Translations under genes and position numbers: made by a program
Notes under the pieces: generated by a model
Told to the model about the DNA's origin: nothing
What the model saw: the letters and a program-made list of their open reading frames with translations, nothing else
The model's database searches: none
Assembly: GCF_000022205.1 (NCBI RefSeq)
Contig: NC_012029.1
Coordinates: 1,550,001-1,614,000, forward strand
Length of the DNA: 64,000 nt
Source: Halorubrum lacusprofundi ATCC 49239
Lineage (GTDB): Archaea; Halobacteriota; Halobacteria; Halobacteriales; Haloferacaceae
Direction: 5' to 3'
Shown: positions 22,223 to 24,752 of the stretch, piece after piece
Numbering within the stretch: the first letter of the stretch is position 1
Layout of the letters: each line of letters begins with the position of its first letter

Positions 22223-22236
22223 CCGAACGTGTTCGG
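22223..22236. promoter_or_regulatory. CGAA-N4-TTCG palindrome upstream of the DUF2249 gene
   Basis: CCGAACGTGTTCGG is a perfect 14-bp palindrome whose core CGAA-CGTG-TTCG fits the motif reported for the haloarchaeal denitrification regulator NarO. It ends 39 bases before the ATG at 22276, just upstream of where a TATA box of a near-leaderless transcript would be, the usual activator position. It also lies upstream of the divergent cupin gene. Confidence 0.7.
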
Positions 22237-22549: not shown

Positions 22550-22867
22550 CTACGACTCGTCGAGATCGAAGAGCCGACGGATCGCTCGTGTCCGAGCCCG
22601 TGCTCGCGTTTTCCCGCTTTGAGGTGCCCGCTCTAGCGCTCGCTCCGGGGCGCCGATCAGTTCCTCGACAAGGGAGGCTCCGAGTTCCCGAACGGTTTCG
22701 CGCTGCTCGTCGGTAAGATCGCCGCGCGCTTCGAGCTTCGAGACGGCCGCCTCAAGCTCTTCTCGCTTGATCTTCGCGCTCCGACATCGGAGCCGTTTTT
22801 GGAGAGACTCCGGATCGGGGGCCGATTCGGACCGGTCGAGAAGGGATTCGGACCCGTCGGTGCTCAT
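22550..22867 (-). CDS. Stand-alone glutamyl-tRNA-reductase C-terminal-like helical domain
   Basis: A 105-residue protein from ATG 22867. Residues 33-83 (IKREELEAAVSKLEARGDL, then LTDEQRETVRELGASLVEEL and IGAPERAL) read like the dimerisation domain of archaeal glutamyl-tRNA reductase (HemA), including the loop that ends in an ApxxAL-type motif. The final RRLFDLDES also resembles HemA ends. The catalytic and NADPH domains are absent, and there is no sign of a longer ancestral frame. It is divergent from the haemoglobin gene, with its own NarO-type palindrome 37-50 bases upstream, so a link to haem supply under low oxygen or NO is attractive. The homology is from pattern memory and needs testing. 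Confidence 0.68.
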   Translation of the reverse strand: MSTDGSESLLDRSESAPDPESLQKRLRCRSAKIKREELEAAVSKLEARGDLTDEQRETVRELGASLVEELIGAPERALERAPQSGKTRARARTRAIRRLFDLDES

Positions 22868-22903: not shown

Positions 22904-22917
22904 CCGAACGTATTCGG
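22904..22917. promoter_or_regulatory. CGAA-N4-TTCG palindrome upstream of the HemA-like domain gene
   Basis: CCGAACGTATTCGG, core CGAA-CGTA-TTCG, lies 37-50 bases upstream of the minus-strand ATG at 22867. The sequence and spacing are nearly the same as at the DUF2249 and haemoglobin genes. Confidence 0.7.
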
Positions 22918-22943: not shown

Positions 22944-22957
22944 CCGAACATGTTCTT
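22944..22957. promoter_or_regulatory. CGAA-N4-TTC(G) palindrome upstream of the haemoglobin gene
   Basis: CCGAACATGTTCTT, core CGAA-CATG-TTCT (one mismatch to the consensus), ends 39 bases before the ATG at 22997. It is the third such site within 750 bp. Confidence 0.65.
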
Positions 22958-22996
22958 TCGGAGGCGTCTTCCGTTGGAACCGAGTCGCTCGACGTG

Positions 22997-23362
22997 ATGT
23001 CCGATTCCCAGTCGATCTACGCGACCATCGGCGGTCAAGAGGCCGTCGAGGCCGTCGTGTCTGACTTCTACGACCGCGTCTTCGACGATCCCGTCCTCGA
23101 ACCGTACTTCGAGGGCGTCGACCGCGAGGCGCTGTACGCCCATCAGGTCCAGTTCATCAGCGCGGTCGCCGGCGGGCCGGTCTCGTACGACGGAGCCGAC
23201 ATGCGGGCCGCCCACGAGGGGATGGGGGTTACCGAGGAGGCCTTCGGTCGCGTCGCGACCTATCTCGCTGAGGCGCTCAGAGAGAACGGCGTCGCCGAGG
23301 CGAACGTCGAGACGATTCTCGACGAAGTCGGCGCGCTCGAACCCGACGTGGTCGGACAGTAA
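22997..23362 (+). CDS. Group I truncated haemoglobin
   Basis: A 121-residue 2-on-2 globin. IYATIGGQEAVEAVVSDFYDRV is the canonical opening of group I truncated haemoglobins. DPVLEPYFEG and HQVQFISAVAGGP follow, and the proximal haem-binding His is residue 73 in MRAAHEGMGVTEEAF. It probably binds O2 or NO and may dioxygenate NO. ATG 22997 is preferred over the GTG one codon earlier. It lies within the CGAA-N4-TTCG cluster, with a site 40-53 bases upstream, which suggests induction under low oxygen or nitrosative conditions (inference). Confidence 0.93.
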   Translation: MSDSQSIYATIGGQEAVEAVVSDFYDRVFDDPVLEPYFEGVDREALYAHQVQFISAVAGGPVSYDGADMRAAHEGMGVTEEAFGRVATYLAEALRENGVAEANVETILDEVGALEPDVVGQ

Positions 23363-23441: not shown

Positions 23442-24752
23442 ATGGACACTGAGCGCTTCCTGTTCGTCTCTGCGGACACCGCGCTGATCACCGACCTCGC
23501 GTGGCAGGTCCACCGCGAAGGTCACGACGTGAAGTACTACATCGAGGCCGAAAGCGACCGAGAGATCGGTGAGGGGTTCGTCCCGAAGACGGACGACTGG
23601 CGCGCGGAGGTCGAGTGGGCCGACGTCATCATTTTCGACGACATCTGGGTCGGCTCCGACATCGGGACGGGTGCGCTCGCCGAGGAACTCCGCGAGCAGG
23701 GGAAAGCCGTCGTGGGCGGGACGCCGAACACCGATCACCTCGAAGAGGATCGGGGCTACGCGATGGAGATTCTCGAAGACCACGGCGTCAACACCGTCGA
23801 ACACCACATCTTCCACGACTTCGACGCCGGGATCCGACACGTCCAGGAGAACCCCGCCCCGTACGTCATCAAACCGCTCGGCGAGGTCCAAAACGTCAAG
23901 CGGCTCCTCTACGTCGGCAACGAGGACGACGGCAGCGACGTCGTCGACGTGCTGAACGCCTACAAGAAGGCGTGGGGCCACCGGATGAAGGGGTTCCAGC
24001 TTCAGCGAAAAGTCGAGGGCGTCGAAGTCGCTATCTGCGGCTTTTTCAACGGCAACGAGTTCATTGACCAAGTCAACTTCAACTTCGAGCACAAGAAATT
24101 GTTCCCGGGCAACATCGGTCCGTCGACCGGTGAGATGGGAACGTCGATGTTCTGGGCGGGCCAGAACAAGCTGTTCAAAGAGACCTTCGGCAAGCTCGAA
24201 GGCTGGCTCGCCAACGAGGGATACGTGGGCAGTATCGATCTGAACTGCATCGTGAACGAGACCGGGATCTACCCGCTAGAGTTCACGCCGCGGTTCGGGT
24301 ACCCGACGATCGCCTTACAGGAGGAGTCGATCGAGTCGTCGACCGGCGCATTCTTCGCCGATCTCGCGCGCGGTAACGAACCTGAAGTCGACGTTCACAA
24401 CGGCTACCAGATCGCGGTTCGGATCGTCCTCCCGCCGTTCCCGTTCGACGACGAGAAGACGTACGACGAGAACTCCCGGAACGCGGCCGTGGTCTTCGAG
24501 ACGGAGAGCCGGGACGGCATCCACCTCGAAGACGCGAAGCGGGTCGACGGCCAGTGGCGCGTCGCCGGCAACAACGGGATGCCCATCGTCGTGACCGGCA
24601 AGGGCGACACGATGCAGGCCGCGCGCGAGCAGGCGTACGACCGGATCGACGACATCGTGATGCCCAACATGTACTACCGCGACGATATCGGCGAGCGCTG
24701 GATCGACGGCGACGGCGACCGGTTACAGGCGTGGGGGTATCTCGGGCCGTAA
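23442..24752 (+). CDS. ATP-grasp ligase resembling PurD (GAR synthetase-like)
   Basis: A 436-residue ATP-grasp enzyme related to phosphoribosylamine-glycine ligase. The N-terminal pre-ATP domain is Rossmann-like (FLFVSADTALITDLAWQVHREGHDVKYY). The central ATP-grasp shows APYVIKPLGEV (about residue 142), QRKVEGVEVAICGFFNG, GSIDLNCIV and PLEFTPRFGYPT with metal-binding Glu and Asn equivalents. In haloarchaea such proteins are often annotated purD, but true PurD has GDPE and glycine-rich motifs not obvious here, so a different carboxylate-amine ligation is possible. Single gene with start ATG 23442, 79 bases after the globin. Confidence 0.8.
   Translation: MDTERFLFVSADTALITDLAWQVHREGHDVKYYIEAESDREIGEGFVPKTDDWRAEVEWADVIIFDDIWVGSDIGTGALAEELREQGKAVVGGTPNTDHLEEDRGYAMEILEDHGVNTVEHHIFHDFDAGIRHVQENPAPYVIKPLGEVQNVKRLLYVGNEDDGSDVVDVLNAYKKAWGHRMKGFQLQRKVEGVEVAICGFFNGNEFIDQVNFNFEHKKLFPGNIGPSTGEMGTSMFWAGQNKLFKETFGKLEGWLANEGYVGSIDLNCIVNETGIYPLEFTPRFGYPTIALQEESIESSTGAFFADLARGNEPEVDVHNGYQIAVRIVLPPFPFDDEKTYDENSRNAAVVFETESRDGIHLEDAKRVDGQWRVAGNNGMPIVVTGKGDTMQAAREQAYDRIDDIVMPNMYYRDDIGERWIDGDGDRLQAWGYLGP

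Follow-up and report, generated by a model that had tools for sequence, protein, structure and literature searches.

What does a gene for a single domain of a haem synthesis enzyme do when it stands alone beside a haemoglobin gene? HemA (glutamyl-tRNA reductase, GluTR) catalyses the first dedicated step of haem synthesis, and the formation of ALA by HemA is the control point of the pathway; to our knowledge, it is not known how archaea regulate this step. In a 64,000-nucleotide stretch of the Halorubrum lacusprofundi ATCC 49239 genome (hereafter the window), a sequence-only reading had picked out a 105-residue product resembling the C-terminal domain of HemA, encoded next to a divergent globin gene, and had proposed that it could bind HemA and tune haem synthesis. 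We asked whether this frame is a truncated hemA or a protein in its own right, and with which processes its gene is associated. The features of the locus are listed in Table 1.

Table 1. Coordinates of the GlutR_dimer locus in the window
Feature	Position	Strand	Remarks
Free-standing GlutR_dimer protein, CDS	22550..22867	-	ATG at 22867, stop 22550-22552, 105 aa
Truncated haemoglobin (Bac_globin, PF01152, 4.2e-22)	22994..23362	+	Divergent neighbour; part of Halorubrum only
DUF2249 protein, 76 aa	22279..22509	+	Convergent with the GlutR_dimer gene; the genus's most constant neighbour
NarO-type palindrome CGAA-N4-TTCG, exact	22905..22916		49 bp upstream of the GlutR_dimer ATG
NarO-like site, one mismatch (CGAACATGTTCT)	22945..22956		52 bp upstream of the globin ATG
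NarO-type palindrome, exact	22224..22235		55 bp upstream of the DUF2249 ATG

Domain identity and predicted fold

A profile search with the window protein gave a match to PF00745 (GlutR_dimer) at 35.2 bits (E 1.7e-8; Pfam cut-off 22.9), residues 24-102 aligning to positions 27-99 of 99, which bears out the proposed HemA C-terminal-domain identity. Positions 1-26 of PF00745, corresponding to the spinal-helix end and part of the N-terminal helix, are missing. The NCBIfam HemA models align by their C-terminal end only (residues about 25-104 against model positions 352-426 of 447), with scores far below the cut-off. As had been claimed, Pfam detects neither the catalytic N-terminal domain nor the NADPH-binding domain in the 105-aa protein, and no TPR or any other Pfam family was found besides PF00745; all 20 homologues in alignment A1 likewise have PF00745 as their sole Pfam match. 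The sole other PF00745 match in the genome is the full-length HemA, a 447-aa frame (G000:C2:2123422). These results confirm that the window protein is a free-standing HemA dimerisation-domain protein, referred to below as the GlutR_dimer protein.

An AlphaFold2 model, for which the input alignment combined the window protein with 12 free-standing homologues and the C-termini of 15 HemA sequences, reached a pLDDT of 84.3 and consists of three helices (residues 19-47, 53-80 and 86-99). The top PDB match was 4yvq_A, the FLU-bound C-terminal region of GluTR (probability 1.00, TM 0.72 on target), followed by 5che_B, a full GluTR (probability 0.99); the HemA rows within the input could favour such matches, and their E-values are weak (0.22 and 0.44, respectively), as is expected for a short helical protein. 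When the family profile was used, on sequence alone, 4yvq_A was again the first match (5e-4). The predicted fold of the window protein matches the solved GluTR C-terminal domain.

Distribution, selection and origin

A class-wide family-profile search, together with the loci fetched afterwards, yielded about 40 distinct free-standing homologues from six haloarchaeal families (f1, f4, f5, f6, f7 and f17), with Halorubrum lipolyticum, H. amylolyticum, H. halophilum and Haloarcula rara among the named carriers. A PF00745 search of 59 related genomes turned up a second short match in roughly half of those from the genus, as well as in several further families; outside the class but within the same phylum, a second match was present in 1 of 157 genomes. 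Haloferax denitrificans, H. mucosum and H. prahovense contain HemA only, the free-standing protein not being found there, and searches of plasmids and of PHROGs gave no match.

The reading frame runs for 182 codons upstream of the ATG without a stop, most of this stretch being antisense to the globin gene, and no part of HemA was found in this extension. Over the core, dN/dS was 0.23-0.46 (Nei-Gojobori, pairs of seven Halorubrum orthologues), indicating that the GlutR_dimer protein is under purifying selection. Together, the HemA-free upstream frame, these ratios and the roughly 40 loci rule out a truncated hemA pseudogene, in line with the initial view that the gene is not merely a shortened hemA. 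We also observed an in-frame TAG near the C-terminal end of one orthologue (G002, L046:4670-4909), a possible recent loss or sequencing error.

A GxLTxxQR loop and the hydrophobic core are common to the free-standing proteins and haloarchaeal HemA. Since the Q-R pair of this loop occurs in haloarchaeal HemA and is absent from other archaeal HemA, the free-standing domain probably derives from a haloarchaeal hemA; many surface residues conserved in HemA are altered in the free-standing proteins. In a tree on 112 columns, which include non-homologous N-terminal tails, all 40 free-standing domains fell into one clade (100/99), whereas the 70 core columns neither favoured nor rejected a single clade (p-AU 0.51). 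As pI ranges from 4.4 to 11.2 across members, we discarded a basic, nucleic-acid-binding character as a family trait.

Gene neighbourhood, NarO-type sites and nitrate respiration

A survey of 40 loci revealed four arrangements of the GlutR_dimer gene. In the first, it lies directly 3' of an ahbD-like radical SAM gene (TIGR04053/TIGR04545), mostly with gaps of about 5-55 bp, as found in families f1, f5, f6 and f17 and in Halorarius; a TIGR04347 AhbC-like gene, DUF2249 genes, halocyanin and HTH_10 regulators often accompany the pair, and in two loci (L051 and L163) a protoporphyrinogen-oxidase-like gene comes next after the GlutR_dimer gene. In the second, seen in Haloarcula-type genomes, the gene is directly 3' of a DUF2249 gene, and in the third, in some Halorubrum, just 5' of nirK. 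The fourth is the window type, in which the gene is convergent with DUF2249 and flanked by cupin/katG on one side and purD-like genes on the other; the globin occurs in some of these loci only. No hemA gene adjoins the GlutR_dimer gene in the loci examined. The divergent globin is thus real, but it is confined to some Halorubrum and the survey excludes it as conserved context; of the proposed conservation next to globins or nir/nor genes, what was found is nirK beside the gene in some Halorubrum. The conserved partners of the GlutR_dimer gene are haem synthesis and denitrification genes, not the globin.

Several neighbours are worth recording in their own right. The purD-like ATP-grasp gene of the window (23442-24752; TIGR00877, 90 bits, cut-off 288) is a very constant neighbour in Halorubrum. 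In denitrification islands, three co-clustered unnamed families are found repeatedly next to the GlutR_dimer gene, namely a COX1-like membrane protein of about 450 aa (L051:59-1426), a 185-aa protein (L051:2335-2889) and a 101-aa protein (L033:6310-6612).

The palindrome CGAA-N4-TTCG has been described upstream of denitrification genes and ahbD in Haloferax volcanii, where NarO controls denitrification (PMC5746218), and a related motif precedes the nirK, nor, DUF2249 and cyanoglobin genes of H. mediterranei (PMC11218638). The window contains four exact copies compared with 2.4 expected, which is not above chance; the copy at 22905-22916 counts because its position is fixed in orthologues, and not by the window total. 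In 11/11 window-type orthologues (the window included), an exact palindrome is found 49-50 bp upstream of the start codon, so that the gene does have its own NarO-type site, as had been noticed from the sequence. It also precedes the head of 9/10 ahbD operons (the exception being Halorarius, for which the fetched locus is short) and of 7/7 DUF2249-dimer units, and none of the three nirK-linked copies. Over all arrangements, 27 of 31 units carry the palindrome at the gene or operon head, compared with 5.4% of random 180-bp windows taken from the same site-rich loci. No exact site was found in the 9 kb around the window genome's own HemA gene, and the NarO-like site before its ahbD-like gene deviates from the palindrome at one base (L199:4415-4426). 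We infer that NarO itself acts on the GlutR_dimer gene.

For the co-occurrence analysis, narG-like genes were accepted at E < 1e-40 and nirK above the cut-off or, in one genome (G006), where split over contigs. narG or nirK is present in 14 of the 35 genus genomes, and the GlutR_dimer gene in all 14 of these. Among the 21 genomes with neither marker, the gene occurs in G013 and G024, with a doubtful divergent match in G034, and the remaining 18 lack all three genes; Fisher's test on these counts, which ignore relatedness, gave 5e-8, or 3e-7 when G034 is counted. Outside the genus, the gene was found in 4/5 narG genomes and confirmed in none of the others (5e-4, again ignoring relatedness). The window genome itself has narG and no true nirK. 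Two matches stand apart: the divergent PF00745-like frame of G034 (L207:5309-5560), a doubtful member from a genome without narG and nirK, and a second weak match to the family profile in G037, outside the genus. The adjacency to ahbD in several families and the co-occurrence with narG and nirK support the suggested haem role, in the form of a haem/denitrification role. Since the three Haloferax genomes include denitrifiers without the free-standing protein, it must be dispensable for haloarchaeal denitrification.

Proposed function and alternatives

In haloarchaea, anaerobic haem synthesis depends on the haem synthase AhbD, without which cells cannot grow by denitrification (PMC5746218), and the plant regulator FLU docks on the dimerisation domain of GluTR (PMC4726326). 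A HemA-directed accessory protein is the simplest reading of the GlutR_dimer protein, which has the domain through which HemA self-associates and is predicted to be produced when haem has to be formed without oxygen. We consider the chances about even that it is an accessory protein of the NarO regulon that binds HemA by the common dimerisation fold and adjusts the supply of ALA and haem in nitrate respiration. At low oxygen and with nitrate present, the protein would be produced alongside AhbD and the enzymes of denitrification and would dock onto HemA via the common helical dimerisation surface, giving a mixed assembly with HemA or capping the HemA stem. Docking would alter the amount or activity of HemA and with it the supply of ALA and haem, as aerobic haem synthesis gives way to the anaerobic route. 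Induction, HemA binding and the direction of the effect are the putative elements of this scheme; as to direction, a positive effect on HemA (stabilising or activating) appears more likely than inhibition, because a NarO-type regulon needs haem. The further claim, that an archaeal post-translational regulator of haem synthesis would be the enzyme's own dimerisation domain, pairing with HemA and, under the control of NarO, linking the formation of ALA to nitrate respiration, is put forward tentatively, as somewhat less probable than not.

The missing spinal-helix end and the altered HemA-conserved surface residues could point to a different partner. The fold may have been kept while the partner changed, so that the protein acts on AhbD or on another protein of the anaerobic haem cluster, as an assembly factor or in haem handling. 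The tight operon with ahbD in several families, the lack of hemA linkage in the examined loci and the diverged surface all fit this explanation, which we nonetheless regard as unlikely: Halorubrum and Haloarcula-type copies have left ahbD and joined DUF2249 or nirK, so a fixed partnership with AhbD is not obvious, and Haloferax has ahbD (PMC5746218) while the free-standing protein was not found in three of its genomes.

Less probable still is a small homodimeric helical protein that works with DUF2249 proteins in nitrate or NO signalling, outside haem synthesis. DUF2249 genes are the most constant neighbours across all arrangements, and their products are induced in denitrification and are kin of proposed nitrate sensors (PMC11218638); against this, every identifiable sequence signal points to a haem-enzyme domain, and adjacency to ahbD recurs in several families. 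That the gene is a decaying, functionless remnant of a duplicated hemA is very improbable and largely refuted, since the retention of the C-terminal end only and the in-frame TAG of one orthologue (L046) are outweighed by the presence at about 40 loci across six families, the dN/dS values, the fixed promoter palindrome and the lack of HemA N-terminal remains.

Compared to the C-terminal domain of HemA, the GlutR_dimer protein belongs to the same family by profile and predicted fold, but it stands alone, without catalytic or NADPH domains and without the spinal-helix end, and is less acidic. The parallel drawn with GluTR-binding proteins holds as an analogy only. Like FLU and GBP, the GlutR_dimer protein is proposed to act post-translationally on GluTR; FLU, however, is a TPR-domain membrane protein, GBP is soluble and unrelated, and neither is a copy of the HemA domain. 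With the known NarO regulon (nirK, nor, ahbD, DUF2249 and cyanoglobin genes), the GlutR_dimer gene shares the CGAA-N4-TTCG palindrome and the neighbourhood (PMC5746218, PMC11218638), and differs in being absent from the three Haloferax genomes checked. The texts of these two papers do not mention the GlutR_dimer protein, and our literature search found no paper linking glutamyl-tRNA reductase to DUF2249 or to a stand-alone dimerisation domain, which agrees with the sequence-only reading, to which no described free-standing version was known. Whereas the domain itself is known, the papers searched contain no description of a conserved free-standing form tied to nitrate respiration. If the HemA-directed function is correct, archaea would have their own kind of GluTR regulator, and the protein would be a clear case in which an enzyme's oligomerisation domain has been put to new use as a modulator in its own right. 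There is also now a testable function for a gene that otherwise goes unnamed in the denitrification islands of haloarchaea.

Finally, a second full-length HemA paralogue was observed at three loci (L192, L193 and L194), where it adjoins NirJ-like radical SAM and NirF-like genes and, in L193, also lies beside a Nar-like molybdoenzyme operon. These loci resemble a cluster of the haem-d1 type that has a HemA of its own.
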